A DNA stretch of 64,000 bases, from assembly GCA_903813345.2 (NCBI GenBank), contig CAIIXF020000005.1, positions 17,799,375 to 17,863,374 of the forward strand, given 5' to 3'. This DNA comes from Owenia fusiformis (Eukaryota > Annelida > Polychaeta > Sabellida > Oweniidae). The notes below the pieces were generated by a model that was given only the letters and a program-made list of their open reading frames with translations, ran no database searches and had not been told where the DNA came from. This document shows, in pieces, positions 9,001 through 60,800 of the stretch. The first letter of the stretch is position 1. Every line of letters begins with the position of its first letter. The position numbers and the translations under genes are program-made.

Positions 9001-12000
9001 GAGTTCACTAATGGAGAAAGAAATATGACATTTGTAAGATATAGTAACATGATTTGTGTATTATTTGCAGCATGTTTCTCTATGATAATAGAAACACTAT
9101 CCTAGAGGACTACTATAAACATGCTATTGAGGGAGGTCCTGGAATTATGTCTATTACTGTACCCTATCATGCAGGTAACCCATTCATTCATTTGTCTATT
9201 ACTGTACCCTATCATGCAGGTAACCCATTCATTCATTTGTCTATAACTGGACCCTATCATGCAGGTTACCCATTCATTCATTTGTCTATTACTATACCCC
9301 ATCATGTAGGTAACCCATTCATTCATTTGTCTATTACTGTACCCCATCATGCAGGTAATCCATTCATTCATTTGTCTATTACTTTACCCCATCATGTAGG
9401 TAACCCATTCATTCATTTGTCTATTACTGTACCCTATCATGCAGGTAACCCATTCATTCATTTGTCTATTACTGTACCCCATCATGCAGGTAACCCATTC
9501 ATTCATTTGCATATTACTGTAACCTGATCATGTAGGTAAACCATTCATTCATTTGTCTATTACTGTACCCCATCATGCAGGTAACCCATTCATTCATTTG
9601 TATATTACTGTAACCCCATCATGTAGGTAACCCATTCATTCATTTGTCTATTACTGTACCCTATCATGCAGGTAACCCATTCATTCATTTGTCTATTACT
9701 ATACCCCATCATGTAGGTAACCCATTCATTCATTTGTCTATTACTGTACCCTATCATGCATGTAACCCATTCATTCATTTGTCTATTACTGTAACCCTAT
9801 CATGCAGGTAACCCATTCATTCATTTGTCTATTACTATACCCCATCATGTATGTAACCCATTCATTCATTTGTCTATTACTGTACCCTATCATGCAGGTA
9901 ACCCATTCATTCATTTGTCTATTACTGTACCCTATCATGCAGGTAACCCATTCATTCATTTGTCTATCACTATACCCAATCATGTAGGTAACCCATTCAT
10001 CCATTTGTCTATTACTGTACCATATCATGCAGGTAACCCATTCATTCATTTGTCTATTTCTGTACCCCATCATGTAGGTAACCCATTCATTCATTTGTAT
10101 TACTGTATCCCATCATGTAGGTAACCCATTCATTCATTTGTCTATTACTGTATCCCATCATGTAGGTAACCCATTCATTCATTTGCTTATTACTATACCC
10201 CATCATGTAGGTAACCCATTAATTCATTTGTCTATTACTGTACCCCATCATGCAGGTAACCCATTCATTCATTTGTATATTACTGTAACCCCATCATGTA
10301 GGTAACCCATTCATTCATTTGTATATTACTGTACCCTATCATGCAGGTTACCCATTCATTCATTTGTCTATTACTATACCCCATCATGTAGGTAACCCAT
10401 TCATTCATTTGTATATTACTGTACCCTATCATGCGGGTTACTCATTCATTCATTTGTCTATTACTATACCCCATCATGTAGGTAACCCATTCATTCATTT
10501 GTATATTACTGTACCCTATCATGCATGTATTATTAAGTAAGGTCATGCAAGTAGCACATTTCTTCATTATCCACTGCACAACATCCAAAAAAGACATCCA
10601 TTCATTTGTCTTTACGTCATTCGTCCTTCTAATTCATCAAGATATTTCACAATCAACCCAGACTTTGTTTTTTCATCATACAAATGAAATCACTTATACA
10701 TGTTTCTCTCATATTTCTGGCAAGTAAAAGTTCATTCCAAAAATATCATGGGACAGATTCAACGTGGCTTACGATGGGATCAATGATCAATGGGACTACC
10801 TTTTCCTAACTACATATTACACTGGGAGAATTCCATCAAAATACTGCTTAATTTCATACTTATGTGAGAGCCGTCATTTTCAAAGCTCTTTCAGTCAGCC
10901 AACCTAAATATCCTGTAGTGAACTCTTTATTTCAATCCATTGTACCATTCAAATCTGCATTAATATATCATTTTCCTTCTATATTTCCATAATTCTTTTT
11001 GTGCTCTCTTTTTACCATTGTGCTTCCACAGACAAAGTTGCAAGATTGCCACTGTGTCCCTTGTTAGATTTTTGATGATAAAACAAAAATGTTTTTTTAA
11101 AGATATTATTGCAGTTAGGAACAATGCATTCTACTAAGCATCTCAGAATTTCTCTGAACATTAATATAGTCCTTGTATATCATGAGATCTTGACACTGAC
11201 CATAATGAAAGTCTGGGTCATACCACATAGTTCTGGTATATATAGTACGTGTAGTAGTAGAAGTAGGATATCCAGCTTTGAAATTTTCAATGGAACATGA
11301 GGCAGTCATGTATATGATTGAATTTTTAACATTACCCCTTGGCCTCACATTGTTTTTTAATTGTTCATCTGCTAACTTAAATGCTTTATTAATCATTTCT
11401 TTGTGAGTGGTTTGTGGCTTTGGACTGACAGTTCTTTTTGGGGCTTTTGTACCATTGTCTGGGTTGGGGGTTGTCTCATTATTGGTCGTGGTTGGTAGAT
11501 TTGGACCTTTCTTATCACTATCTTTTGTTCGAGTAAAATTCCTTACAGCTTCTGTAATCTTATAAATCCCAAACTCTCTTGAGATTGTAATAATGTCGTG
11601 AGCATCATCAGTTATTGCCACAATGCCAAGTTGGACTTTTGTTGGTGCAATACCCAATTGCATTATGAATGCTTCAATGGGGTATTCACTAATGTCTGCA
11701 TCAGTTGTAAGATCTGCTATGATGATTACGTTCCATTCTTTTACACAGGCTGGTCTATGACACACATTTGACCCTTTCGGGTTTGCTAAAATGAATTAGA
11801 GATTATTTTTTAATTTATTTTAAAAAACTATAGTACCCATTATTTAGGGAGAGCATTTAAAAATATTCACAGTTTGGTACAGATTGCTTTCCATTAAGCT
11901 TAAAATTAAATAACAGTTTTGAAAAAATACTTACTGGCCCCATTTTGAATTGGCCCAGTAATGCTATTTATCCATTTTAAATTATGGATAACTGAAGTAT

Positions 12001-18000: not shown

Positions 18001-21000
18001 ATAAAATATACCATAGGTGAAATTCTCCATCAAAATCACATCCTCTGTGTTTTGATATAAACTGATATTAAAAGGGAGATAGACACACCAAAAAGGAGTA
18101 GAAGGGAATTTGAGAATAATCTCAAATTTTTTTATATTTATAGTGATCTTAAAGGTCCATCAGACTTTATTTAGGGAAAACGTTCCAATTTGTAAGATTA
18201 TCTGATTAGTTTTTAAAAAAGGGGACATTCCTTTTTTAAGTCTAGCTGCATCTTCAGTTCCCTAAAATTCCTTCCTTAAAATTCTTTCTGAAGGTTGTTA
18301 CTATGTTGCTTTGTGGTCTTGAAATAAGTGTTTGACAGGGAACAGACTGTATTAATTAAGCAGTCAGTGATGGTTTGATATAGATGTGCATTATAAACAT
18401 CTGTATACAATTATTGTAAATTCTAATTGTAAGTTTTATAAAATTAATAATTAAATTAAATCACACATTGATGCCTTTTTTATTAAAATTAGATAATTAA
18501 CTTTCTTTCTTTGCTTTCAGCCAATAAAGTGGATATTCACTTCGCTTTCTTGGCTAATTCAGGAGACAGCTCTGTAAGTAGAGATAATTATACTATATAT
18601 TTGAGCCAGGCCACAGGAAAAGGGCCTTATCACAGATTTTTTCAATATCCTTATTTTTTGTTTATCTTAAAAAGCATAGAGAGACCTTTCAAATGAGCCA
18701 TGATTTATGTTTTAACAATTTTCCCTTGCAGATATAGTCCAAAATGTCGGATTTGAATTTACCACAATTCCCTCTTAATCTTGGGCACAATTTTGGCTCT
18801 GTAGAACAATTTTAATTTTTGTGATAAGACCGGTTTTCCTATGGCCAGGCTCATTTAATATGGATGTCAGATGAATATGTTCTCCCCCTTAATTTCAAGA
18901 GAATAACTTTTTGGCATAAAAATGCATCCAGTTGAGCAAGTCATCTGAAACTTCTTGTGGAGTTGTTCCATGCAGCCTAATTTTGATGTGCCAAAAACAA
19001 GTCAGATATCATGTAGAGAAAAAAGTGAACATCATGTGGATGTTAAAGCCAATGAGGGAAGAACATATTTATTTGACACCCTGTATAAATTGATATTGCT
19101 AATTTCATCACTGGTTGAAAGTCATGCTTGTAATAATATGACTTAACCATGATATAATAACTTGAATTAGGAGAATATGATTAACTATAATAAGACATAC
19201 CATATTATGATTTACTATTACATGACATAACATCATATGAGATATATAATATGACTTGCTGCATAATATGGCCAACCATAATATGACATACCATAATACA
19301 TGACTTGCCAAAATATGAAATACCATAACACTGGGATCTTCAACTTGTGTATGAGATATATGAAATTTCCAACAAATATTTTTGTCTACTTTAGGTTCAT
19401 GATGGAGTTTAACATCTACAGTTGGTGGAACAGCCTGAGACATGCTGTCCAAGGTATGTACAATGTTCCTTTACGCTTTGTGACAGTTTCTATTCATCTC
19501 CATTTAATTATAAATAAGAAACAATTCATTGATTTAGTTAATATCCTAGCAGATTGAAAATCACTTCATATTCTACCTCTGCATAGCTGGTATAATGAAA
19601 ACACAGAATTAAATCTTGTGCTAAGGGCTGATGTGAAAAGTACTTCCACCCTAGTAAGCTGGTATTTATATACTGTAAAACCTGACTAAGTGGAACACCT
19701 TTGGTATCTCTTAAAAGTGTTCCACTTGGAAGGTGTTCCACTTCTAAAGGTTTCATTAACATGAAGTCGGTTGATTTTGGGATTCTGAAAAGTGTTCCAC
19801 TAACAGAGGTGTTCCACTTTACAGATTTCAGTGTGCTTTAATACAATAACCACAGTATACAGTTTTTTCACATTTAAACTCCCATCGGGCCATGAAACAG
19901 TTTATCAGCATTCAAACTGTAATAGATTGTTTTATTCATAAAACACCTGAAATCTGAGGGATACCTCCATCAATAGTTGACAACAAAAAAGTAAGTTAAA
20001 GGTTGTACTTACACACAAAAATCACTTCAAAACATATGAGACGTAAGACAGCATTGTTTTGTCTTATGTGGGCACACATTCTTCAATACAGTACGATTGA
20101 TTGATTTATTTGATTGATATTAAATTCATATAGCTCTATTTCAGGCTCAATGTTTCATGTACAACAATCTAATGCACAACAACGAAATATTGTTTTTGTA
20201 AAACATGTAGAATTTATTTTATTTCATTATAATTAATGTAAAACAAGTTAATAATAATGATGATTAACACAGCGGACATTACATGTAAAATGTCAAAGGA
20301 ATAACAAATAAATATAGAAAAAAGTAGTATAATGGTTTGGATTGGTACATTGATTATATCCACCTGTTAAAACTTGGTAATAAATTTATGTCCTGCACTT
20401 CTTAGATATGACTTTTACATCCTGCTATTATATCCTGAAAACCTTAGTTGGGGATGAATAGAGATTATCCCATATGAGGTTCAGGATATACACGGATATC
20501 CAAGTATGGGATAAATTATTATTTTGCACTTTCTACAGGTGAAGACATTCCAGATTTACCTGAAGGTTACAAGTGCCAGGAAGAGGGTGATACTTGGACC
20601 ATTGACTTGTGTAGAAGATATTTGGATACTGGCAATACTATTGTTGGATGGAAAGAATGTACAAATCAGTCTCAGATTCCAGTCTTAAACCCCAATGCCT
20701 TCAGTTCTGGACCCGTTAAGAACACTATCAATCTAACTCAATCGTCTTGTAAAAAATTTAACATTTCCGATGGCTCCTTTTGCGAAACGTAAGTATTGCA
20801 TAGATACCGGTATAGGAACAAGTTCATGTTGCGATTAAAACCCACATCTGGTACACATGCTGTCTTTAAATCCACATCTGGTACACATGCTGTCTTTAAA
20901 TCCACATCTGGTACACATGCTGTCTTTAAATCCAATGTACATAACTCTAGAAAGGGATTTTGGTTACAATTAATAAATTGAAAAATTGTGGAGCTCAAAG

Positions 21001-39800: not shown

Positions 39801-42800
39801 CTGAAATCAATTGGTGTGAATAAAAAGGTTCAAAAAGAAGGTTTTCAAGCTAAGGAAGACCTCGATAGATATCCCTCCTATCATTATGTAGCAGAAAATT
39901 TTGATTACTGTATTCATGTATTTACATAGAACTTCTTCAGATTCAAGGTATTGTATCGTTTCCTCATATTCCTTACCAAACCAAAACAAACCTTACCAAA
40001 ATGCACAACTTAAAGTTCCCCTGGATAAAAAATGGTTTTATAGTTACACAAAGAGGGTTTTTGATCTTGTCTTTATAATATAATAAAGAAGTTCATAATA
40101 GAGCTTTACGCACTCTTTAGAAATTATGAATAAAGAAAAAGGTCTATATAACCCAATGCTGATCGAAGGAAGTTGCCTCAATATCAAATGCAAGTACCAG
40201 GATGTAATATTACTATGAGGGATTCCCCTTTATTGCAATCTACAGTATTCAGTTTCATTTTGGAAAAAACTTGGATGTTTCATACCAGTGGCAGAATCTG
40301 ATTAAAGTTTAGCCAGGCAAAACACTTTTGACAAATAGTTTGTGTATCATAAAACTGTTTGACAGTAGATTCGAGTCTGAGAGCTGTATTATAAACATAA
40401 CTACTAATGGCAGTAAATGTTTTGCCCATTCTAACTGGTCCATTTCCTCCAGATAATAGAACAAAACTATCCTCAGAGGATGTTAGACGCTTAGGAAATT
40501 TTGTACATTTCATCTCAGAACAAGTTGATGTGAAGAACAGATACACGCCAGAAGAACTCAATGAACATACATCATTCATTGAAGACAATATGCAAACTCT
40601 AGTAGGAAAAGTTGGTGAATACGACCCTATGTTAACTTCCAAGGAACTTCTCAGACGTGGAAGTTCATACAGTAGAGCAAAAATTCTGTGGCCAGATGAG
40701 TATGATTTCATTCCAATCCTGGCGAAATTTAACAAAAATACAATAGAGGTGGAGGAGGTGAAAGAAAGATGTTATAATGGTGGCAAGGGGGATGGCTATA
40801 TCAAAGTGAAGCCTGGAACTTTACCAATACAACAGATCCAAAAATACACAGGAAATTGTCCATCAAGTGGCATCTTTAACAATCTAGGATTAACCACACA
40901 ACAGAAGTGTCTATGTAGCAGGAAAATCTGTGATGAACTAAGGAAAGCCGTATTATGGTCGCTAGAGCACATGGATACCAACTTAACATTTATTGGAGAA
41001 AAGGACCATAAAGATCCTAGTGATAGTTCTTCCTACAAGAGAGGAGACATTAGTATTCACAAGAAGTTACATGGCCCAAGTTTCTGGTTGAGGGTTGGTG
41101 GGCCTCTGTGCACAACTGATATAGACCTCTGTTTCGCTATAGAGGGCACACCACATAAGCAACTTGGGTGATGTATCATGGTGGATAATGTTTTTTTCCG
41201 TAACATGTGCAGTTGTGGCTACAACTTTTCAGAACACTGGAAGAAATTTCTGATTAGTCCACCCGTTAACACGAAATATGTGTTATCTGAATCTCATCGA
41301 GAAATATTCCTATCGCTAAAGTATATCTCGCATCTTGCAGCAGAAATGTCAGGGCAGACATTCCCATATTCTCCTGACATTCTCTCCAGCTACGATATTA
41401 ACATGGTGTTGCTCCAACACCAACAGACATGCCTTGCGCTCAATGTGGGAGAATGTTTTGTTGATACTGTACGGCGGATCGTCAAACCTGATCAGAAATC
41501 TGATGATAACGATGATGATATGAATCATTTAGAAATATCCTTTAACCCATCACACTACAACATACAACGCCATGATGCATTCTTCCCAAAGAGACATATA
41601 CATCTAAAGAAACTCCACAGTATTGTGGCAATTGCATGGTTTACGCTTGAAGTTCGTCAAACAGAAGATGCTACATGGATACACCGACTACTCAGTCTTA
41701 CCCAGGAGCCCCACAATCATACCTGGTGGGACCGGAAGACACAAGTTAACGATACATTGGTACTCAGACTGTTAACTAAGAGTGACAGTGGTCAGTTGAG
41801 AGGTTTACTGAAGGCAATCAGGAAGGTTGACAGTTGGTTCAAAAAGGCTGATGGGTGTAGAGGTCCATTTACATTGAAATGGCACCACAAAGATGACAGT
41901 ACAAAGGCCTCGTTAACTTTGAAGTATCACTGAATTTTCTCATTTTTATAAATCAAACATATTTATTCATGGGCAACTAATTATCTAGGTATATTTATGC
42001 ACCATTTAAATTCTAATGTAATGTAGAATTGAAATGTACTTATATTGTTTATTGTTTTTGGTATTAATGATACAACAATGTACACTATAATATGTTGTAT
42101 TTGTGTCGAAAGCATGAGATTCAATTCAATCAAGCTTCTTCAATGTATTACAAGAATATTACAATGCTAAGAGATATTGTGCAAAACATGCACACTTTTC
42201 AAATTGAATTTGATACATACTTTGTTACCATGGTAATATAGTTATTATCTAAAATCTGAACACATATATAAGTGCTAACTTTGTAAAGGACAAGGTGCAA
42301 TTATTGGCAAATATCGATTCAGGTCATACTTAAAATTAAAAGATTGTACATTTTTTCATCAATTTTTCCCTACAAAATGGCTATAGAAAAATGCTCCAAA
42401 AACAACTTTTACACTTATCAAATATCATACAAGTTTGTAAAACCAAAGATTATACTATTATATTTCATGATGTAGTAACATATTTGGATAAGATGCAGGG
42501 ATGCGTAGGATGTAAATGGATTTTGACAGACACAAAAATACTTCCTGGTTTGGAATCTATGCCTCTACACAGCAGGAGATCCAAGCCGCAATGTGCTTCG
42601 GTTAGGCAGATTTATACTCCCGCCGGGACGTCATAAAGTCCGATATTTCGATTTCGTCGGGAGAGCCCAAAATCACCCAGCCATTTTTGATTGTTCCTAA
42701 CTTTGTGAATTTCTGATGAAATTGAATTCTGTTTTCAGTTTTGAGTTATATAACTGTAGAACTTAGTTCATTAGAGTGGATATGACTCAAAGCTCGTGAA

Positions 42801-45800
42801 AATGCAGCTGAAATGCTTTCGAAACAATTCGAATTTTTTTCAAGCGATTTTTTAAGAAATTAAAACTTTTTCGAAAAAACTGGCAGAAAACCATCTCCCC
42901 CTGCTCTGAGTTTCAAAGTGGTATTTAAATGATACAAGACGATATGGGAAACCTTTTTATCGACTTACCTTTTGTGAAGAATACGTGCAACTCGCTGAAA
43001 ATTACTTTCAAACCTAGATCATTATTTTCGATTTTCTCGTTTCACTATTGAAGAGCGATCGTCAGTTTCCGGTTCCGCCGTGAGTTAGGGCAAACTTTTT
43101 GCTTTTGAACATTTAAACCTCTTTAGGTTGAATATAATAGTGCTAATGCAGAGTTACTATGTTTTATATGTATGCTGTATATCTGACTACCCATGGACCT
43201 CATAATGAGTAAGTACAAACGCTTAATTGAGCCTAGGATCGACGAAACATGTCAGTTAATTGACCTAGATTTTTCAAAATGGATGCCATATTTTCGATTC
43301 CAAATCGGTAAAAACTATGTTTTGATATCTACAATAACATATTTTCAGGGTAATAAATTGAGCTATTACAATACACCTGGACTTCTAACGACATATTGTG
43401 GACATCAGAAGGTACAGATCGTTTAGAATTGCAGCATTAACACATTGAACAGGTTGGTTATTTCCTTGTATTTCATTGGTTCTGGAAGCTTCAACATTTT
43501 GATACATTCTCTCTGACTGCAATTTTGAACCAGGGTAAACGGTTTTAGAATCTGTCTTTCTATTTTCAAGTCAATTTATAATTTTTGACTCAAATTGCTG
43601 TAGATATTGACTCAACATTTACTTGAGATACTGTTCTAGCTTCTAATCATTTTCTATTAATATCATAACTCCCCTAGATCTAGCTTTTATAGGCATAAAT
43701 CTATTTCAGCTCTCTGATTTTTTTCTCTGTCAGACTCTGCTCAGACTGAACTTCTAGGCTCTAGGCTTATTCACTGTATTCTATTGTTACTCTGACAATG
43801 GCTGCCTTACGACTGTCTCAAAATGAGATTACCAAATTTGAAGTTTCAAAGAAATTCATGTCAAGCTTATCCAACAATCATCTCATCAATATCATAGGGG
43901 ACAGCATGGTCAAACTTTTACCTGGGCATCACGGTTCATCTCCATTTTCATTTCCTGGGCAAACTATCAATCAAATTAGATGTACACCTCATTTTTCTAG
44001 ATTAGCAAGGGAATCAGACATCCTCATCTTTCATTTTGGGGCTAACAACATTTCTACAGGGCAGCGTTTTGACACGTCATCTTCATCTCCATCCTATTCA
44101 TCCTCTCTCTGTGGAGAAATGGAAGAAGCGATTGACAATGCTCTCTTGCTTAATCCATCTCTTCTCATTCTTTTATCTGGCCAACTTCCGAGAGGGTCCG
44201 ATAAATTTGGAAATATATCTGATTCTGTCATTAATCGTCAAAATAGAACTTCCAGTAAATTCAATTACTGGTGCGATGTTGGTTCAGAGCGCTGGTCGCA
44301 AGTCTCTTTTGTCAATCAATGGGACTCTTTCATCACTCCTGAAAATCATATAAACTCCAAAGGTCTAGCCCATGATGGTCATCATGTTAATGCTACTGGT
44401 GCTGCTCTCATGTATACTAACATAGCATCTGCATTAATGAACAATCTACACTCCTCTCTACCTCTTTCACCTCCTGTACCCCCAACTCCTCCTACTCCAT
44501 CCCCCTCTTTGCCAGAAGATGATCCTGAGGCATGGCCTGTCCTGTCTTCTATTTTTACTTCAATGCAATTTATTAACATTTTATCTTTCATTGAAAGAAA
44601 AACCCCAATTTTCCCTACCCCTCCCATACCACCCACTCCCAAAACTTCCCACCATAGACATTCTTTCAAAACAAGTTCCAGGCCACGTCAAAATAAGTAC
44701 AAGAAAAATAACAAGAAACATGAACGTCATCCTCCAAATATCACTGACCAAGCATGCCCATCCCGAAAAATCACTTCTTACTGCAACCCAAAATATAACA
44801 GCTCTCCAAAATTTCAGCCCAAAAAATCAACTTTACTCATTTTTCCAGATGACCAGAAAAAAGCTTCTGCATTAATTGAAAAAATAAGCTCTCAGATTCT
44901 CATTCCACCTTTTGAAGCAGTAACTTACAACCCCAACAAACTGACTGATTTTTCAGAATTTGAAATGCCATCCAAGTTTTCTGCTTTAGATTTAGATGAA
45001 CAGGATACTTCAACTGAAATAACATTTCAAAAGTACTGCTCACCCAGACATACTAAAAACAAAACAAAAAAGCATTTAAAGGCATGGAAGTCTAAAAACA
45101 GAAAACGTAGATGTAGAGGATCTGGTTTCACTCTCAAAAAGTCACCTTCTTGTAGCTCCAAAACATTGTGCTCCCTATATGATAGCACATCTGGCACTCA
45201 ATCTGACACCACCACATTTCATTCTGGCACTCAATCTGACACAACCACATATCATTCTGGCACTCAATCTGACACCACCACATCTCATTCTGGCACTCAA
45301 TCTGACACCACCACATTTCATTCTGGCACTCAATCTGACACAACCACATCTCATTCTGGCACTCAATCTGACACCACCACTTCTCATTCTGGCACTCAAT
45401 CTGACACCACCACATCTCATTCTGGCACTCAATCTGACACCACCACATCTCATTCTGGCACTCAATCTGACACCACCACATCTCATTCTGGCACTCAATC
45501 TGACACCACCACATCTCATTCTGGCACTCAATCTGACACCACCAAATCTCATTCTGGCACTCAATCTGACACCACCACATCTCATTCTGGCACCCAATCT
45601 GACACCACCACATCTCATTCTGGCACCCAATCTGACACCACCACATCTCATTCTGGCACTCAATCTGACACCACCACATCTCATTCTGGCACTCAATCTG
45701 ACACCACCACATCTCATTCTGGCACCCAATCTGACACCACCACATCTCATTCTGGCACCCAATCTGACACCACCACATCTCATTCTGGCACTCAATCTGA

Positions 45801-48800
45801 CACCACCACATCTCATTCTGGCACTCAATCTGACACCACCACATCTCATTCTGGCACCCAATCTGACACCACCACATCTCATTCTGGCACTCAATCTGAT
45901 ATCACCATATCAGATATCACTGAACCTACTGTTTCTTCAACATTCACTTGTATTCTTTCCACTGCAAGTAAATCGTTAACATATTGTTCATCTATAAAAA
46001 TATTCCACGTTGGTAAATTAATTGATTTTACAGCAATGTACATAAAATGCCAATTTAGACTAAGACTTGTTTCAGGAAAATTTTTGGAATGTAATGACAT
46101 TATTGATATTTCAAAAAATCCAACTGTTAATATATTTATATGCGGTCTTGGTGGAATGAAAAGACTCTTCGTTTCTCCATCTTCTCCTGGCTCATCATCT
46201 TCTCCAGAAGGTCAGGTCACCCCAAACAAATTGTTATCATCTCCTCAGACACCAAAATCTTCAACTCCTAAATCTACACGCAAATCTAAAATTCCTGGTC
46301 ATGGTAAAGACTGTGCTGAGATCTGTCCTATATGTTCTCGAAGAATTTTAAGATCTTTCCATTTGATAAATAAACCAGATGATGTAATAAAAATTGCCCT
46401 CAGTAAATTCCCTTCTTTAACTGTATATAGTTGTATATGTCGTGCTTGTGAGCCCAAAGTTTGTAGTTTTGATCATTTAATTCCCATGAAAAAGAACAAA
46501 TCTGAAACAGTGTGCCTTTTCAATACCTCTGATAACGTTTGTGAGCCTGGAAATTTGACTTGTTCTCAGAAATTCTCTTTAGAAGATATAAAGTTATACT
46601 GCGATGCAAATGATATTTCCATTGATATATCTATTTTTAATGAGCATAGCCTTTGCAAAAAACATTACATGAATCTCTATCATTTTCTTAGTTCAATGAA
46701 ATGTAAGTTATGCTCCAGCTTATTTACATCACATCATGGGTTGAATAAATCAAAACGTTTTAGTCCGTACTATTGTATTTTGAAAAGTTTCGTTCATGAT
46801 AAACAATTGAATGTTGAAATTGATTTAGATAATCAACAGAATTTGCTTTGTCAAAAGTGTTTTTCAAGTTTATCTGTCTATATAAATGAGAACTACAACA
46901 TTTCAAACATTGGCTCTATTTCTGACAAGTTTCTTCATAATATAACCGAGGAATTTAAACATGAAGTATCTGAGAACAAGGACCATGATTTTTGTCTTTA
47001 CAAAACTTTTGTTTACATCGCAACTCGTTTACTTAAAGATCATGCTATATTGTTTGTAGAAATTTCAACTTTTTATTATAACCTTGTATCCTCTTACAGT
47101 CTTGATGAAGCCCAATCTCTAAATCGTGTCATGCTGTTAAATTCTATAAAAGAAAAATTTGGTAATATTTTAGTTGTTAAATCTAATTCATCTTCGCAAA
47201 GGGGTGGGGCTCTTCTTTGTCGACTTGGGTTTGACCCTCTTCATACTTTGCATGTGTCTTTGTGCGATATGTATTTCTCCAAAAGTGAAAATCAGAATGC
47301 TAAAAAATCAGACCCATTATTTGAAACAGCCTGTCTACTAAATAAGAAAATAAAGGATCAAATTAAAAAAATACTACTTTTACAGAAAACAGGGCAAATT
47401 AACTTAGAAAAAATCCAACTGCTTGAATTTGCTGAAGAATATTTTGACCCTCTATTGTGGAATTTTTTATTTACAATGCTACATGGATGTAAAACCAATC
47501 ATATTGATGAAAATGTTCTGATGCTACAATGTTCTGATTCTAGTTCTCCTGGTTCTCCCAATAATCATTTAGTACGCAATGACTTGCAATTGTTCAATAC
47601 ATTTAGTTCATTACTATTTGCTCAAAATCCTCAATGTAAAAACCCATTGCCTATGATCTTATCTGATTTCTTAAGTAAATTTACAGAAGATTCATCTTTA
47701 TGTCATTCAGTTTTTAATTCATTCGGTGCTTCAACAAGTAAAATTACTTTCAAACGGTTTCAATCTAGTATAGCCAAAAAAATTGATGAGGAAGGACCAG
47801 AACTTTGTGGTGACTCGGCATATTTTATAAGTGTGGACAATGTGGGAAAAGATAAAAAAAACTGTAGGGGTAGGGCAGACAACACTTCTAAAAGAAATGA
47901 AATGACTACTGTGCAATTAGGTATTCCTCAACCATTTAAAATCATTTTAAGTTCAGATGAAAAAACATCATTTTCAAGAGAATGCATTTTTACAACTCAT
48001 GGTAACTTTTTTAAAATACTAGACATAGTTTGTGATAATTTTACTTTGCCTCGATGCCTTGTTATTATCTTGTTAGACTCTCTTATAAAGTGTGAACGAT
48101 TAAATGGCTCACCTCTCCTGGACTCTTTAATTTCCTTAGAAAATAACCTAACAACTTTAATGCATTCCACTATAGAGGCTACTCTGTTAAAGGAACAAAT
48201 ATTTTTTGACCAAATCAATGACAAATTTCCTTTTGTCAAAGAACTTTTAGCTTCAGTTTTTTTAACAGGTATGCCTTTAAATATATATGAACGCAGCAGT
48301 GAATCTATTCTTGTAAAAAAAGCATCTATCATGCCTAACATTTTAAAGAATAATGTTCCCATTAATCTGTTGTTTGATAAAAAACATTCTCTCTTTTTAC
48401 CTCTCATAGATTTCACTTGCTTACATTCAGGCAATTCTTTCTTAAACATTTCATATCTAGATAGTAAAACTTTTGATCCTTTGCAAGTGTTTAGACCTGA
48501 TTTATCCATTCAAAAACTTTTTAATGTAGAATCTCCTTTACATGACTTTTTACCAGAACCTAGAAGAACTTCTATGGAATTAATCCCTTCTGTTTCTAGT
48601 ACCCTGATTGATTCAAAACGAGAACTACTTGATCATACCCTTTTATCAAATTCTGTTAGTTTGCAGTATTTCTTTCCTACTTCAGTTGAAAAAGAAATTG
48701 GTTCTTTGTTTTCCACGCATTTCTTCAATTATTGTTTAACAAAGTTCTCCTACTTTGATAACAATAGTGAAGAATCCTCTATAGAAAAATCCCCAGATGT

Positions 48801-51800
48801 TTTGAAACCATTTTTAGCTAAATTTTCTCCAAAAAATACAATTACAAGCAAAATTATTTATCTCTCTGTTCTTGACAAGCATGCAGATAAAGAAGAAACA
48901 ATAAAATATATACTAGACTTGTATCATGAATCTTTAGAAATTGGCATAAGGCAGAAATATTTAATAGTGGTTGGGGATGGTAAAACTTATGACCATTTAG
49001 TTAAAATAAAGAACAAATACACAAAAGATTATGATTTTGTACTTCCATGGCCTGGCGATTGGCATATACTCAAAAATTTTGGATCATCTTTAATGAAAAT
49101 ATATTCCAGTGCTGGTTTGACTGAATTAGCTCATCTCTTTTACAAAGGAAATTCTGCTATTGTTGTTACCAGTGCATTAAGTTTTGCCAAAACACACAAT
49201 TTCATAATGCAGGTATGGGAAGCTATGTATCGCCTTTTGATTGAAATATTTTTAACTCAAAGATCCATTGAAAATACCAAGTGCCAGCTCAGTTCTGATA
49301 GTATTAAAGACATTGTTTTAGAATCTCTATCTCTATCTTCCAATGATGAAAGTTACATTCCAAATTTTGTTGCTCTATTTGACAAATTATCTGGTCTTGA
49401 AGATGATTTTCATAACTTTTGTGATAAAATGGGAGAACTTGATGAAAATTGGCTTTTTTGGTGCCGATTTGTTTTCAAAGATGCATTTACATATATTGGT
49501 TTCTACTTTGCTATGAGAAGTGGAAATTTTGACCTAAGAAATTATTTTTTGAAAAGTATGGCCCCTTATTTTCATATCACCAATTCAACATTTTATTATA
49601 GACTTATTCCCTTACATCTATCAGACTTACAGAGCTTCCCAACTTCTATTATTGATCATTTCAGAATAAGTTGTTCAGTTAGTATTTCTGGTACTTTTTA
49701 TAATCAGTTAGCATTTGATGAGGCTCATGAATCGTGCATAAACAAAGACATTAAACGCGTAATTGGTCTTTCAATGGAAAACACTGTTCAAAATATTAAG
49801 TACATGCATTTTAGATCTCTTGTCCACAAAAATTTATTATCACAACTCCCTCGGTCTGATGAGACATCAAATATATATAGTGAGCAAGATACATCATTTA
49901 AAAAAATACAGGAAGGTAATATCCAGGCAATTTTGACCAAACTATCAGAATCAGAGCTTTTTTTAACTAGGCCTTATCAAAGTGATATTATTATTTCACC
50001 CCTACGCCACATATTTTCAAAGTATGAGGCAGATCTTGACCAAAAAACTTCTCTTTTAAATTTTCATCAAAAATCACATGAGTTATACACAGCCTTTATC
50101 AAATGTCATATTTTAAAGGACCAGTCTGCTAAATCTGTTCCTAGAACTAAATACACTTTGAAAACATTTGAAATCAAAAAACCATCATCACATTCTCTAA
50201 AAAAACAATTAAATGATCAATCAAAAGTGGTGAAATGTTTAAAAAAACAAATTGAAATATCCCAATCCTCCTTCAAACCTTGTGAAAATATTCACACTGT
50301 TTCCCCCTATCCTTTGTCTATTTGTAATACCATTTGTGATAAAAAAGGGAAAATTACACAAGTTACTGCCTTTAAAAATTCAAAATCTGTCACAAAATCC
50401 TTTTTTGAAAAGCGTTATAAAGATTGCTGTCCACCCATCTTCCATTATGGTGCACTGCCTCTTAGTTTTGAGCCCAAGGTTTATATTATTGATGGAATGA
50501 GCTTCTTATACTCTTCCAGGCCATATAAGGACTTTCATGTTAATTTCCTCACTTATGTTAACAAAATTTATTCAAAACTTATTTCTATGAAAATTCAAAT
50601 TCATATTGTTTTTGATATTCAGGAAAGTGAACTTATTACTCCTAAAATAATAGAAAGGAATTTGAGAGATTCTGGTGCTGTAGATATAACAAGAGAAAAC
50701 ATAACAGAAACAGATATTTTACCCAGTAATTTTGACACATTTTTAAAAAATAGAAGAAATAAAAGACTTTTTGTGAATTTCTTTGGTGAAACCATTCTAA
50801 AATTACACTCAAATAATCCTTCCTCTCCAATTTCAATGTTTGTTTCAGGTTGTTTTTCAGACCCCACTGAATGTTTTTCTTGTTTTAAAGGTAATGTTTC
50901 AAAAAATGATTTATTTTCGTGTAATATAGATGAAGGGGACTCAAGGATTTGGTTTCACGTTTCATTGTGTGAGGAGAAAGATATCCTCATTTTTTCAAAA
51001 GATACTGACTCTTTCATGATTGGCTTGCCTCATATTTCTAATTTAAACAAAAACATTTTTATCAACATAGGAGGGTCAAAAGCAATAAGTGAGGTTTTTA
51101 TACATATGAATATTTTATTTCAGAACATTTCAAATGATTATTCTCTACAGTCTATGGATGCATCAGGTATTGGGAGAACAATCCAAACAGTTTTTATATC
51201 CAGTGGTTGTGATTATGTGAGTTCTTTCAAGGGTTTTTCAAAATCATTTGTTTTTGAAACTTTTTTCAAAAATTGTGATTTTATTTGTGGCAAGGATTCA
51301 GTTAAAGCCAACCTTGGGTCACTATGTAATACTTCATGTGAAGATTCTGATTTAGGATTCTTGGCATTTATGCGTTTAATTGTCTTTTTTTTACTAGATG
51401 TAAATCAGCATTTTACGATTTAATTTCAGATGAAAATCCAGTATCTCTGTTTAATCACCTTTGTAAACCCCATAATCCTCCTTTTGATAATCACACCACT
51501 TGGCTTAGTTTAATTAGAGAAAAAAATGCAATGCGTGACTACAGGGAAAGATGGCTGCCTACGGCAGATGCTTTAGCTTTTCATTGGAAGCGGTCTTGTT
51601 GGGTTTCCCAAGTTTGGTTTCAGTGTTTAAATTCAGTAGTTTATTATCCTAGCTTAAATGATTGGGGTTGGTTAGTTGTGGATGGAGAAGTTTCTATTAC
51701 TTGGGACTCTGCTGAAAATATGAATAAGGTCAATGAAACTGTTCTATTTCTTTAGTGAAAGGTTGCTCTTGCAAAAAAGACCCATTTTGTTCTGGTAATT

Positions 51801-54800
51801 GTGGTTGCAAGAACAGACCTGGTGGATGTGGACCTACTTGCCTCTGCAAGGGTGGGGTTAATTGCAAAAATCCAGTTAATTTGACAAAAATAAAGGAAGA
51901 TACAAATGATAAATCACTATTAGAAGATGAAGATAATTCAGACTGTGAAAATAATAATGAAATGAATGGACTCCTTTTTCAAGATGATATTTTATTTAAC
52001 ACAGATGATTCATCTTCTGATGATGACAGTGATTTTAGTGCTTAACATGATTTATTTCATATTATGGGCAAAATATGCATTATGCTATTTACAGGGAAAG
52101 TATAGGATTCAATCTGTCTTATCCATCTCCATTAAGTGGAGGTTGGATATTTTTTTCTATTTTTTTTTCATTCCTGTGAAATTCCCTCTTTTATCCATCT
52201 TCACTTTGTGATGATTGGATATGATATGCAATAAAATATTATATATTTGTACTCAAATATTCCTTGTCACTAATCCACTATGTGTATGATGCTTACATGT
52301 ATGTCCTCACTTCAACTTGTAGGTTTTCTCATCTTAATACATAGATATGCCCTCGCTATTTTCTACTAAACCTGTTATGGTGTTGTGTAAGATACTAATG
52401 TCCTCACTTCAACTTGTAGGTTTTGCCATCTTTTACTTAAATATGCCCTCATATTCATCTTCTAAACCTGTTATGGTGTTGTGTAAGATGCTAATGTCCT
52501 CACTTCAACATGTAGGTTTTCTCATCTCATTACTTAAATATGCCCTCTTACATCTACTAAACCTGTTATGTTGTTGTGTAAGATACTAATGTCCTCACTT
52601 CAACTTGTAGGTTTTGCCATCTTTTACTTAAATATGCCCTCATATTCATCTTCTAAACCTGTTATGTTGTTGTGTAAGATGCTAATGTCCTCACATCAAC
52701 TTGTAGGTTTTGCCATCTTTTCACTTAAATATGCCCTCATATTCATCTTCTAAACCTGTTATGTTGTTGTGTAAGATGCTAATGTCCTCACTTCAACTTG
52801 TAGGTTTTGCCATCTTTTACTTAAATATGCCCTCATATTCATCTTCTAAACCTGTTATGTTGTTGTGTAAGATGCTAATGTCCTCACATCAACTTGTAGG
52901 TCTTGCCATCTTTTACTTAAATATGCCCTCATATTCATCTTCTAAACCTGTTAGTTGTTGTGTAAGATGCTAATGTCCTCACTTCAACTTGTAGGTTTTG
53001 CCATCTTTTACTTAAATATGCCCTCATATTCATCTTCTAAACCTGTTATGTTGTTGTGTAAGATGCTAATGTCCTCACATCAACTTGTAGGTCTTGCCAT
53101 CTTTTTACTTAAATATGCCCTCATATTCATCTTCTAAACCTGTTATGTTGTTGTGTAAGATGCTAATGTCCTCACATCAACTTGTAGGTTTTGCCATCTT
53201 CTTACTAAAATATGTCCTCTCATTCATCTATTAACTTACTTGTGTAAGATGCTTATGCAATGTCCTCACTACAACTTGTATGTTTTCTCATCTCAGTGCG
53301 AGTACTAATCTTGTCTTATCTTTCCATATTCTTTCATAGCTCATGTCTTCTCTTAGCTTTTTAACCTCTCTCATCAATTATCTTCCTACCTCCTCTTTTA
53401 GCTCTCTTGTATTTTCTTAGCTTCCAATTTTCTCTATATTGTCCCCAATACTTAACCCTTGTAAAGGTAGAGTGAATACGTACAGCAATTTAGTCTCAAT
53501 TTGATTATGTTTATATGGGCAGGGATTAAATTAGTTGGGAAAATGCAGTCAGAGAGCCTGCTTATATTAACTCAAAAATGGTAAGTTTATATGTATATTA
53601 AAGTAACTGATAACTACATTTGTAGCTGGAGACAAACATATGTCAGACATGCCAATCCCCATTCATAATATGGAAATTTCAGATTCCACAAATCTCTCTT
53701 TTATACATGTATGTAGAACAAGTAGTAAATAAGAGATAACCTCTTACCTTAAGCTTTGTGGTAAACTTGTAACATGATATAATGAACTTTGAATATCCTT
53801 ATAATCAAAAATTATGTTCTTCTCCAGGCCAAGTTTGGGACACTCTTCCCACTATGGTGGTAGAATGGAATGAAATGAGTTGGATTATCTTCTCTAATTG
53901 GTGCAGATAACATAGATTGAGGACATACCAGATGAATCCCAGAATGCACTAGCTGTAATGATCACATCTAGTATTGAGGAGCAATGTACTACTCAACATA
54001 CCAGATTACTGGGACCCCATGCTTCAAACACAAAAGGTGGAGCATTTTAATATTCCCTCATGATGATGATACAAAGATGATTGGTTTCTGTTTGGTAGTG
54101 GGTTGTGACTCTGCGAAAAGCAACATCAATTTTTTAGTCACATACACTGTCCTTATTGAAGGCAATTTTGAGTTTAGAGTAAGAAAAACTAAAAAACATT
54201 AAACTCTAAACTTAATCTTTTAACAGTTTAAAGGTTCATTCTCAATATTTCACAATTCAATATGACTCAAATTATAATCAAATTGATTCCATCACTTTTG
54301 TATACATGTACTGTATGTAGTAAAATGAAAATATCTTCAGCTTTGACTTCCATTTTGAATAAGCCATCAATATTGTTAATATCCTATGTGTTCATTTTCT
54401 AAATGCATTATAGTTGTTTCATTTTTGTAGGATCATGTGCTTCTAATGTGGAGTGAGGATGCCTCAAATATGAGCAGCTGGCTTTGAACTCTTATGCAAC
54501 TGGCTTTTACAGACATCTCTCTGAAATGTTTACAAAACCACATGACAGGAAGTTCTTATCAGTGTAAGTCAGCTTCTCATATGGTTCATAATATGTTTTA
54601 TTTTACCTGCTGTCAAGGTTGGAATTGTCATTTTGGAGATAACTCTGGAAGGCCTAAGGGAGGTACATGTACAAAAAGTACAACCTCTCCTGGAGTTTCG
54701 TTTTTTCTTCGAAAAATTTTGTCGGTTTTGGGTAGTGTCTTCAAATAGGTGGGGCTACAGGTACATCAAATGTATTCTTAAAAAATCAGTGGAATTGTAC

Positions 54801-57800
54801 ATAGGGTAATTAATTTAATATGCTTATGCCCTTTGTACCCCCTCCCTCTCTTGGGACTTTGTGTGAAATTCATACCTAAGGCTTCAAGGGTTAATATAGA
54901 AAAACAATCTACAGTGTTTCATGTTTCAAGATGTACTTTGCCAATGATTTGATACACAATATATTTTTATAATGAGTAATATTTCTGTAGATCTAACCTA
55001 TGGTCAATAATTAAAAATGGATTGGAAACAATGTTTTCAATGTCAAAGAAATCATAGATTTCCTTTTGTTGGATTAAGTGTAAAACTTGTGAAATTTATG
55101 ATTGACATTGATCAAATATTGTATTTGTTTTTATTATCATTTATTGCAGCAAAGTTAAGATAGAACAAACCAATGGGAAAGAATCTAGCATGGATTGTAT
55201 GTTGTTTCATGCAGCACAACAGATGATCTGATTGGTCCAATATGTTAGACAAACTTGACTGGAGGGTATGCAGATCATAAGATAAAAATGATAAAAGTAA
55301 GCTGATACATGTATGTCTCATTATTTATTCACATGTAGGCCATGTAGGCAGGCATGGCATAAAAAAATCCAGTAAATCAGAACACACCATTCAAACTTAT
55401 ACAGTTATATGCATTCTATATTTTACAACAGATTAAATATTAACAATTTACCTAATTACCTTCCTCAATTTTGTAAGCAGTTGAGTGAAAAACTGTTAAT
55501 AGTATCAATTTGAATAAATATTAATCAATAACAAGGTAGGTACTTCTGCTGGTCAAAATGTTCAAAGATTGAACCCTTTTGAACAGGGAAACCACTATCG
55601 TGCAAAGTATTGAGCTTTCTTTTACATCAAATGTATACATGTATATTTGCAGGATTCTTAAGCAGGAGAGATTCCAAATACTCAAATCTTAATACTTTGG
55701 CTGTCAGGAGGTCATCTTCCAACTAACAAACATTGAACAATGGGAATACAGGAGGATGATCTGGGCTTATTCCAATAACATTCAAATAACTGCTAAAAGT
55801 AATCCAGGTCCCAAATACAATTTCCATATACATCAGATATATCGAATGTTCATGTTATCCCACATGGAATATCCAAATATATGTGACTATTTGAAAAATA
55901 TCAAATGTTTTTAATGTACACTGTAGGCATAATGGTCAAAATAAAACTGTTATTGTAAACCTTGAAGGAAATGTTGATCAATGTGAAAAAACTCAACATT
56001 TATATATTTTTTATGTTGAACTCTACCTGTATATGATAGTACATTTAATTATGCTTTGGGTTAAAACATATTTTTACTGTATACATATTTTTAGTTCTTG
56101 GCAAGTGTGCACAGTCGCACAGTATGATGTTTCAATTTTATATCTATCCTTATCAATTAGGCCTGTATGTATTGAATAAGATATGTCCAGTGCTGCCATA
56201 TTTGAATTGGATAAATAAATATTTGTACTTTCGCTCTACATAGATTTTTATTTGTCAATTCACATGATCCATACCCAGGGATCCATAATAATTCCGGAAT
56301 CTTTTTTATTTCATTTAACTGTCACATTATTATTAGAATAGTACTGGCAAATGGATGGACATGCAATGTATGTGTATCATTTACCAATTTATCCAATCGG
56401 TTTTGAAAGACAGGAATCATTGATTTATCCATTTAATTAGTTAATGAAAACATGGAATGAAATTCTGCACTAAGGGCTAATGTGGAAAATACAGTCCAAC
56501 CTAGTGGGGATCCGAGCTTCATTGATCTTAAAACAATTATCGCTGAAGCTAACTGACGAAAGCCGTGAACATCTCCATGACTTATCGCACATTCAATGGT
56601 GGCGAAAATAAAAAATAAAATTTTGACATACGCTAAAAAGGTTGATCATCACTTTCACCAGTCCATGCCATTTTAGAAGAAATCACATTTTTGCGTGTTC
56701 TTTTTGTTTCTGTCGTTTTTCTTATTCACGCGACATTTAATAAACAATGAAAAATAAGATTAACTTACTTCAATTCAACTACTTATTTCATGAAATACAA
56801 TTCGGATACCGGCTATATATCATGTATAAAACATGGGCATGTAAACACAATAATTATAAACAATCATTTTGAAATCCGATCGTCAAAGATGTGTCCACAA
56901 GGCTTGAAAGGTTAGCAAGATATCATACATCGTGTAAAACGGCTGCATATCCATTCATATTTCTTTATGATTTAATGAAAGTTGACGGCGAGGACGTAAA
57001 TTTATGAAAGAAATGGAAGTGAACTTGAATTAGAATTGGTCGCACTAAAATGGCAGAATCTCGTTTACCCCAGGGTAGGTAAAATGAATAACGATCATTG
57101 AAATCCTCTCATTTTGATCTACAAGTGGTGAAATAATTTTAGATAAAACCGGTTGTTAGCGATGCGTCCGCTATTAGGCTTGAAAACAATATCGTTGTTG
57201 GATTTTCTTAAATACCCGGATGCGATTTTAAATATGGCGGAGACTCTACCTTCAATATAATGTGTATATTAGATAAGATAATGAGAATAACATTCTGAAA
57301 TTTCTTAATATAAGCTTTGCAAATCAGTTTACTTTGTGGGAAACCGATAAAAGACGAGTGATCTAATATCATGTAAAAATGGGTGCATCTCCCAGGAAGT
57401 TCAGTCACGCGACAATCTGGTATTATGTGACGTTAAATGATGAAATAAATGGCTAAAAGACACTTGCACTAAAAATTGGCAGAAACCCATCTCCCCCAGG
57501 GTTGGTAAAAAAGAATAACACCATTGAAATCGTCTAGATTTGAGCTAAATAGTGCTGAATTAATTATTTGTGAAGGCCGCCGTTAACGATTTATCCGTAA
57601 GGCTTGAAAACAGTACACATTTTTGCGTTTTCTATAAAAATATCACAATTGCGATTTTGATTATTGAGACCAGACCTTGAATATGATTAAAAAATGAGAA
57701 AGACCGTCTGAAACTACTTGATATACGTTTTTCAAAACTGTTTACCTTGTGGGAAACCGATAAAAGACGAGCGCGATATCATCGTGTAAAGATGGGTACA

Positions 57801-60800
57801 TCCGTCCAATAAAGTTCAGTCACGCTACAACCCGTAATATGTGACGTTAAATGATGGAATAAATGGCCCTAAAAAACACTTGGTCGCACTAAAAATTGGC
57901 AGAAACCCATCTCCCCCAGGGTTGGTAAAAAAGAATAACACCATTGAAATCATCTAGATTTGAGCTAAATAGTGCTGAATTAATTATTTGTGAAGGCCGC
58001 CGTTAACGATTTATCCGTAAGGCTTGAAAACAGTACACATTTTTGCGTTTTCTATAAAAATATCACAATTGCGATTTTGATTATTGAGACCAGACCTTGA
58101 ATGTAATTAAAAAATGAGAAAGACTGTCTGAAACTACTTGATATAGGCTTTTCAAAACCGTTTATTTTGTGGGAAACCGATGGAAAACGAGGGAGATATC
58201 ATCGTGTAAAAATGGGTGCATCAACCATGACGTTCATTCATGCGAAAATCGCGCGGGCTAATCACCGTAGATTACTACGCGAAATATGCAGAGAACAATG
58301 GAAATGACGTCTTGGATCTCCTGCTGTACACTTCATGATTGAATTATGACCCTAATAAGCGGCCTATACATCAATACAATGCTGAATATAGGTCAACAAG
58401 ATACTAGTGTGCATATAAATGTAATAATTGAAGCAGAATACTCATTTTGAAAAATCAGATGAATTATTTTTTTCCCATGGGGAGATCCCAATGGAGGGTG
58501 TATAAGGTCCAAAGTCAATATGACCAAACTACTTGTTTTTTGTTCAGTTAGCTATTAAAAATACAGTATGCCAGGTTTCTCTCCCGGACAATACATGATG
58601 TCCCATTATATTCAATCAGGGAAACCCCTGTCAAGTGACAAGAGCACACAAACATCAGCAAACTGTGCCTTGAGCCAGACAGCCAATTAGATTCAAAGCC
58701 GGTTTTAAATTTTCAGAACTGTCATTTATAGAGTTCCTTTGGTCATGTGACCATACTGATAATTAAATATAATAACAAATTAGATAAAATATGGATTTCC
58801 CTGATTTATTCAAGTTTAGCACATGAAGCTGTAAAGATGGGACATCTTCCTTGGTAAGTAGATAAGTGAATATGTGGTATGGAATAATTTATTTGTCAAA
58901 CAAATATGTTACAAAAAATTTACTTGACAATACTGCCAAACATATTCAAGATCCCTTCTTCGAACAACTGAATAAATTAAATAACCCCTTCGGTTGAAAT
59001 AATAAGAACATTTCCTACATATAAATTACATCTACATATTTAGCATCATACCTTGGTCCATAGCATAGCAGAGGCTGCAAGCATATCTACAATCCAAGCA
59101 TGTCCCTGTATTATGGTCCGACAGATCCCATTGCTTTGACAGTTCTTCTATTCCAGCCAAATCATCCAAAATCAGCATTGGCCAAACACCCAAGAATGGA
59201 CATGTCTTCCTAGCATTTGAAAGGAAAAACTCTGAAAGTAAAAGTTCATATCTTGTATTTATGTACTGCAGTAAAAGCGATGGTATGATCATAGCAGTAA
59301 ATGCGATGGTATGATCATAGCAGTAAATGCGATGGTATGATCACAGCAGTAATAGCGATGGTATGATCACAGCAGTAAATGCGATGGTATGATCACAGCA
59401 GTAAAAGCGATGGTATGATCACAGTAGTAAGAGCGATGGTATGATCACAGCAGTAAAAGCAATGGTATGATCACAGTAGTAAAAGTGATGGTATGATAAC
59501 AGTAGTTAAAGCGATGGTATGATCACACAAAGTCAGCACTATCAATGGTATACTCTACCTTAAGTAACTTGATTGAATGGAAAAGATGCTGTCCCCTTTC
59601 AAAATGATGTTCCGCCATTTTGAAATCTGTCACAAGTAAATAAGGTTAACTGATGTTGCATTCTGGGAGTCAATCATCCTTGGATCACAAACATGGCGAT
59701 TCATGAAAACATTTGTTCGATTTGGTAGAGATTTATCCATCATTTGCAGGTATGAAGCTTTGGATTCATTTATTGTGCTACTTAAAGTGAACAGGAATTA
59801 TTTTTCTACCGCTTGAGAGAGTTTGAGACACAACACTTAGAGTCTACCTCATTGTGACAACTTTTGAGGGTTGAGGTTTATTTTTCAATTTTTGTCCCCC
59901 ACTTTATTGACTTTTTGTCAATCCAGAATGCCCAAGAGTCTCCCCAGAATGTAACATTGTCTGAGTCTGTTATAGTGCACCTTGTACTTGTCGAGCGTGA
60001 TATCAATCCTTCGAAAATCAGCAAACGTTACTATGACTTAGTTATAGAGTCAAAAAACATTTAAAAAAATCACTCTAAAAGTTTTTACCTTCCATTTTTA
60101 AAATATTGCCGGATTACGCACAGAGTCAAATGTGATTGGCTCAATTTATAGTTTTGATTCCGTTGCTGTTCCATGCAGAGAACATTCTCCTTCAAAATGT
60201 AAACTATCTTTGTAATATATAGTACATTAATGCTTGTAAGAATATGCAAAATTATTCATCAACTTTTTTTTATCTTATTTAGTATTGATGTATTTTCTTT
60301 TTATATTCAATAGGCTCCATCATTGAGAAAAACACGAAGTAATATACAGTTTGATCGACGCAGTTTACAAAACGTATCAGCCAATCAGGGCGAGGAAGTG
60401 AAAACCCAAAAATATTTGCTATTTTGTTTACCTCTTATTTATGGAATTTCAACGATCTGAATAAGAATATTACAAGGTAAGTTTACATGTACTCAAATTA
60501 GTATACATTTATAGCTACCAGTGAGCTGTTTCAATCAGAAAACAGAGTTTTTATAGTAAATTTAGTTTGAAATGTTGACCTACTTTTCAGTTCCTCAAAT
60601 AGTTTCACTCTTCAGTTCAAATATGTAAATGCCTATACATTAGTCACTCTAGTCATAACATTGGCATCTGCTTTGTGGTAAAGAACAATATCCTTCATGC
60701 TTTTGTCTCTTTTGTCCCTCAGTGCTGATCGACAACTTTTTGAAATGGTTAGAGATTTGACATTTACAATAATGGATAAAATATATATGGTTGAAGTATA

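Follow-up and report, generated by a model that had tools for sequence, protein, structure and literature searches.

A stretch of 64,000 nucleotides from the annelid Owenia fusiformis (contig CAIIXF020000005.1; hereafter the window) contains an open reading frame of 2541 residues, which raises the question of whether it encodes a host protein or the protein of a mobile element and, if the latter, of which kind. The initial annotation, made from the DNA letters, had read this frame and two continuations in shifted frames as one mobile-element protein that combines an SGNH hydrolase, a region of probable transposase, a FEN1/XPG-like nuclease and a CXC tail.

The main frame runs from stop to stop at 43765-51423, with its first ATG at 43798, and two overlapping shifted frames reach 52045 (Table 1). 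The domains are ordered as SGNH, 33-bp-repeat linker, possible SUMO-like domain, zinc clusters, DUF6589 (probably RNase-H-type) region, 5'-nuclease and probable CXC tail, and an OTU fold is inserted inside the transposase region. A protein search returned 60 proteins, query included; the relatives P0001-P0004, as well as a second genomic copy of the element (copy A), have the same domain order and read through to the tail. The tail therefore belongs to the protein, as had been proposed, and the two frame shifts are private to the window copy or to the assembly. The idea of an intron there was rejected for the first shift: the interval available to it measures about 30 nt, and its removal would leave the reading frame unchanged. 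Neither Pfam, searched with the full window protein, nor Rfam gave a match, and none of 70 pattern matches in viral contigs was a relative. Helicase was absent from the Pfam matches of the window protein (there were none at all) and of the relatives scanned.

Table 1. Features of the element, in window coordinates.
Feature	Position	Strand	Remark
Target-site duplication TACA, left copy	42566..42569		
Left terminal inverted repeat, CAGCAGGAGATCCAAG	42570..42585	+	left boundary of 15,757-bp element
Main ORF, 2541 aa, predicted composite transposase	43798..51420	+	
SGNH/GDSL hydrolase domain, residues ~25-225	43870..44472	+	catalytic residues kept
33-bp tandem array, SGTQSDTTTSH linker	45190..45911	+	coding
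Possible SUMO-like domain with terminal Gly-Gly, residues ~716-793	45943..46176	+	
Paired Cys/His zinc clusters, residues ~838-1060	46309..46977	+	conserved Cys/His columns
Probable strands 1 and 2 of RNase-H-like region, including first Asp (D1347)	47821..47982	+	
OTU protease fold insert, residues 1396-1539	47983..48414	+	catalytic Cys motif lost
Rest of DUF6589/probable RNase-H-like region (D1727, D1754, H1756, E1978)	48775..49827	+	
FEN1/EXO1/XRN-type 5'-nuclease domain, residues 2195-2536	50380..51405	+	
Shifted-frame continuation with end of nuclease region, then the stretch after it	51351..51755	+	
Shifted-frame continuation with probable CXC (Tesmin/TSO1/LIN54-like) tail	51737..52045	+	
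96-bp tandem array	52301..53229	+	non-coding 3' part of element
Right terminal inverted repeat	58311..58326	-	right boundary of element
Target-site duplication TACA, right copy	58327..58330		

The ends of the element were located by comparing copies, which gave a length of 15,757 bp (42570-58326) and terminal inverted repeats (TIRs) of 16 bp; the left end recurs in copy A and in a 9-kb derivative, L075. Three exact 16-mer inverted pairs are present in the window, one with matching 4-bp flanks, while 30 Markov resamples contained 33 such pairs and none with matching flanks. Inner inverted repeats at 43587-43622/53461-53495 and 43509-43526/53540-53556 had been the first candidates for the TIRs; they were dropped because no adjacent duplication was seen and the ends common to other copies lie further out. 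A gapped alignment of the inner-repeat region was matched or beaten by 43 of 935 random window pairs and by 3 of 500 shuffles. Copy A likewise carries its own inner inverted repeats.

Searching the 498-Mb genome with the TIR at ≤1 mismatch gave 103 matches (52 forward, 51 reverse), and the reversed pattern, used as a control, gave one forward and no reverse match. Pairing of these matches by eye (opposite ends ≤17 kb apart) recovered the window element and copy A, together with 20 more long pairs and three short ones. Among the 20 long pairs, an exact 4-bp target duplication was found in 15, a 5-bp duplication in four and none in one, and the flanks of mismatched control pairs agreed in 14 of 380 cases. 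The short pairs span 132 bp (with AACA), 472 bp (with ATTT) and 60 bp (without a duplication). Thus inverted repeats common to dispersed copies are found at both ends, together with short target duplications of near-fixed length, as expected of cut-and-paste transposition.

Several copies were informative. Copy A, on another contig, has the same TIR ends as the window element, is flanked by TATT and encodes its protein in a single frame of 2641 codons from stop to stop. Copy B is 99.5% identical to copy A across 9.8 kb at a different genomic site; the shared stretch stops within 2 bases of the TIR end, and the left part of the element is missing. L075, the one pair of the 20 read at full length (the others were read at their ends), has no stop-to-stop stretch of more than 140 codons and a protein remnant of only 25 residues, and its four longest matching pieces are 90-95% identical to the window element; by its sequence it is a deleted derivative of that element. 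The short element of 472 bp traces to the copy-A type, to which its two longest pieces are 94-99% identical. No convincing pair of TIRs and duplications was found within the flanks examined of copies C-F, of which C retains a degenerate right end, and a TIR scan of loci L025-L028 found none.

Pfam recognised DUF6589 in 15 of 19 relatives. In an alignment of the window protein with 60 relatives (A3; P0058 is absent from it, and hence from the residue counts and the tree), 54 of the 55 rows that are not gapped at D1347 have aspartate there, and D1727, H1756, E1808, D1974 and E1978 are kept in all 61. A structure model of residues 1342-2541 (pLDDT 83.9, pTM 0.73) placed D1347 in strand 1, D1727 directly after the strand numbered 4, and E1975/E1978 in a late helix beyond a long helical stretch. 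The resulting order is strand 1 (D1347), strand 2, OTU insert, strand 3, helix, strand 4 (D1727), helix, strand 5, helices and the helix with E1975/E1978; DDE transposases with a helical insert have the same order of strands and helices. On this model, the DUF6589 region probably has an RNase-H/DDE transposase fold. Two PDB fold searches with the model listed no RNase-H structure, in lists that one domain can fill. Structure search identified the insert as an OTU fold; the GDGxC catalytic Cys motif of an active protease is absent from it in the window and intact in 10 of the 60 relatives scanned, plus copies D and E. Both the OTU insert and the ends of the element had escaped the initial annotation.

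The nuclease, encoded together with the transposase, has the fold and the seven catalytic acidic residues of the FEN1/XPG/EXO1/XRN superfamily, the positions being those that are catalytic in FEN1. The window's own tail segment had no Pfam match, and the tails of the relatives do match CXC.

The SGNH domain has the Ser, Gly, Asn and Asp/His blocks and a flavodoxin-like fold, identified at a Pfam score below the curated cut-off and from a structure model of low confidence. In both the window and copy A the SGNH domain is part of a single ORF, and it is also found in the frame-broken copy F and in P0045 and P0049; the catalytic residues are kept in all five carriers. P0045 and P0049 surfaced through the search with the core and are the sole relatives in which the domain was found, many models starting late. 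At E ≤0.001, no other long protein was retrieved with the SGNH region.

At the position of the window's 33-bp array, copy A has a different repeat. For the segment that follows, a profile of seven sequences returned SUMO in 15 of 19 PDB rows with the Gly-Gly aligned, the scores of single domains being weak: the best row (E 0.0016) was a tandem SUMO-2, in which two weak domains, scoring 6.7 and 11 singly, were summed, and the next row had E 0.21. Pfam found nothing in this segment, its structure model reached pLDDT 64-83 at residues 731-780 and was lower on either side, and its HMM matched only its own seeds among 70 sequences, in which many relatives start late.

The relatives (P0001-P0061; DUF6589/CXC proteins of echinoderms, Mytilus and others) share a core of zinc clusters, DUF6589, 5'-nuclease and CXC. 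Their tree has 67 rows (61 + 6; the length filter removed none), with the SUMO-like label assigned by hand and, for copy F, by eye. The joining of SGNH with a decayed OTU looks new, in contrast to a sister clade with an intact OTU and without SGNH. Between the window element and copy A, pN/pS was 0.18 in the DDE region, 0.24 in the nuclease, 0.31 in SGNH, 0.34 in the OTU-like insert, 0.39 in the SUMO-like and zinc segments, 0.48 in the linker and 0.66 in the repeat, values of which only the contrast between regions is meaningful, as synonymous sites are near saturation. The SGNH domain and the dead OTU appear to be held rather than drifting.

The TIRs, target duplications, coding copies and deleted derivative identify the element as a cut-and-paste DNA transposon rather than a host gene, with high confidence. 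A domesticated or ordinary host gene descended from an old transposon would account for long ORFs with apparent purifying constraint and for the small number of coding copies; it is nevertheless very improbable given exact TIRs with 103 genomic matches, target duplications, a copy B nearly identical to A elsewhere, the deletion derivative L075, and the window copy's own TIRs and TACA duplication. The same evidence, obtained from the genome-wide search for copies that had been proposed, also disposes of the single-copy, syntenic gene that the initial annotation had set against its reading of a mobile element. An origin of the SGNH domain by chance read-through from a neighbouring gene, or as an artefact of gene models, is likewise scarcely credible. 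A profile built from its five carriers did match those five only among 70 sequences (in which many relatives start late), as an artefact might, but the domain shares a single ORF with the core in the window and copy A, recurs in copy F, P0045 and P0049, and combines intact catalytic residues in every carrier with a pN/pS of 0.31.

The other alternatives concern the kind of nuclease and the kind of transposon. That the nuclease is XRN-like, working on RNA or on 5' ends as a 5'-3' exonuclease, and not a flap endonuclease, is somewhat doubtful: differences of less than 1 in Z are ties, EXO1, Rad2, GEN1 and XPG match too, and the CXC tail suggests binding of DNA, as the CXC of LIN54 binds it. A transposon outside Academ, forming a separate superfamily with DUF6589, 5'-nuclease and CXC, is rather unlikely. 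Duplications of 4-5 bp occur in other superfamilies too, and the literature searched contained no paper with DUF6589 and none joining Academ with XPG, so that one passage provides the link to Academ, the AcademX nuclease being presumably XPG. Against this, a nuclease with a short duplication is AcademX as that passage describes it (PMC10045372).

The best explanation for these observations, and one that we hold to be probable, is that the element is a cut-and-paste transposon with one giant, nuclease-coupled transposase, most likely belonging to AcademX or to a close sister of it. The absence of RNase-H structures from the fold searches and the two frame shifts of the window copy were counted against it, as were four 5-bp duplications, exceeding the 3-4 bp given for AcademX in the passage cited, and one pair without a duplication. 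In such a transposon the zinc clusters and CXC tail would bind or hold the CAGCAGG ends, and strand cutting and joining would fall to D1347, D1727 and an acidic residue late in the region, E1978 or one near it, the RNase-H part cutting at CAGCAGG and inserting across a 4-5-bp stagger. The 5'-nuclease may then remove flaps, or tidy gaps or broken ends left by excision or insertion; fair confidence is placed in this nuclease-coupled mechanism. By analogy, and with low confidence, the possible SUMO-like domain and dead OTU might engage host ubiquitin/SUMO repair signalling, and SGNH might anchor the protein to lipids, a role proposed for the esterases of LINEs. A distinctly unlikely extension is a family with its own ubiquitin/SUMO toolkit in which strategies were swapped, one clade having an active OTU and the other a dead OTU with a SUMO-like modifier; cleavage at the Gly-Gly could then free the SGNH-SUMO half from the transposase-nuclease half, making a self-tagging or polyprotein-like transposase.

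For a transposase linked covalently to a 5'-nuclease there are now defined ends and target duplications, as well as coding copies and deletion derivatives, and the question of whether such transposons carry their own DNA-end processing is now testable. OTU folds that sit inside transposases, one clade having them live and another dead, bear on the older proposal, in the passage cited, that ubiquitin/SUMO signalling takes part in transposition (PMC2836005). An SGNH esterase, known from LINEs, is now found in a DNA transposase.

Among known systems, the cited passages describe AcademX as encoding a nuclease with 3-4-bp duplications and AcademH as having a helicase with 9-10-bp duplications (PMC10045372); 100 Academ elements have been curated in bivalves, according to the part of the source cited (PMC10294476). 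Membership of AcademX, or a position as its close sister, is most likely for the element, judged by described traits (nuclease and duplication length). It resembles AcademX, as described in that passage, in encoding a nuclease with the transposase and mostly in duplication length (4 bp in 15 of 20 pairs), and differs in its SGNH, possible SUMO-like domain, dead OTU and 5-bp duplications in four of 20 pairs; its 4-5-bp duplications do not fit AcademH. Since AcademX has been described with a nuclease and 3-4-bp duplications, the transposase-nuclease core is probably of an already known kind, and the initial claim that no described transposon class has this set is not right for that core, which AcademX as described largely matches. 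Beyond that match, the element adds SGNH, a possible SUMO-like domain and an insert with a decayed OTU, and the combination seems undescribed within the literature searched. Ginger1 likewise joins a transposase to a domain of the ubiquitin/SUMO pathway, with either OTU or Ulp1, but not both, in a given element; its transposase is Gypsy-integrase-like, its protease is C-terminal, and the passage cited mentions no 5'-nuclease or SGNH (PMC2836005). SGNH esterases lie within the proteins of CR1/L2, RTEX and Penelope-type elements, and for that of ZfL2-1 lipid binding and weak hydrolysis have been demonstrated, as the cited passage reports (PMC3905857). Those elements, however, are retroelements with a reverse transcriptase, whereas here SGNH forms one protein with a DNA transposon's transposase.

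Two further copies in the same genome, D (L018-L019) and E (L020-L021), encode sister proteins in long open frames of 1990 and 2087 codons. The OTU motif was intact in both of these proteins, and an SGNH profile search of the two copies did not find the SGNH domain. In the related proteins P0036 and P0038, long tandem-repeat stretches, with units resembling HTELSLPQTSG and GEPTHRHLASAAPL, occupy the place where the OTU insert sits; the stretch in P0036 may account for a Pfam Toastrack hit.

The ORF lay between inner inverted repeats in the window element and likewise in copy A, a further coding copy. Among the 20 long inverted end pairs that were checked for target duplications, one (L032/L033, C1:19975229-19990243) had no matching duplication, and its 16-bp ends were perfect.

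Coordinates of repeats and neighbouring frames
Feature	Location	Strand	Remarks
Tandem array, 45 bp, 30.7 copies, 91% matches	window 9148-10529		distant from element
Two neighbouring open frames	window 40401-41933	+	upstream of the insertion
Inner inverted repeats flanking ORF	window 43587-43622 / 53461-53495		inside true ends
Tandem repeat, 420 bp	window 57280-58250		extends nearly to right end of element
Inner inverted repeats flanking ORF, copy A	L009-L011 joined, 9753-9819 / 19468-19532		inside true ends

The first of the two neighbouring frames resembled a Mab-21 nucleotidyltransferase (Pfam PF03281, E = 0.0021, under the family cut-off). Mab-21 nucleotidyltransferases are kin of the cGAS-like sensors.
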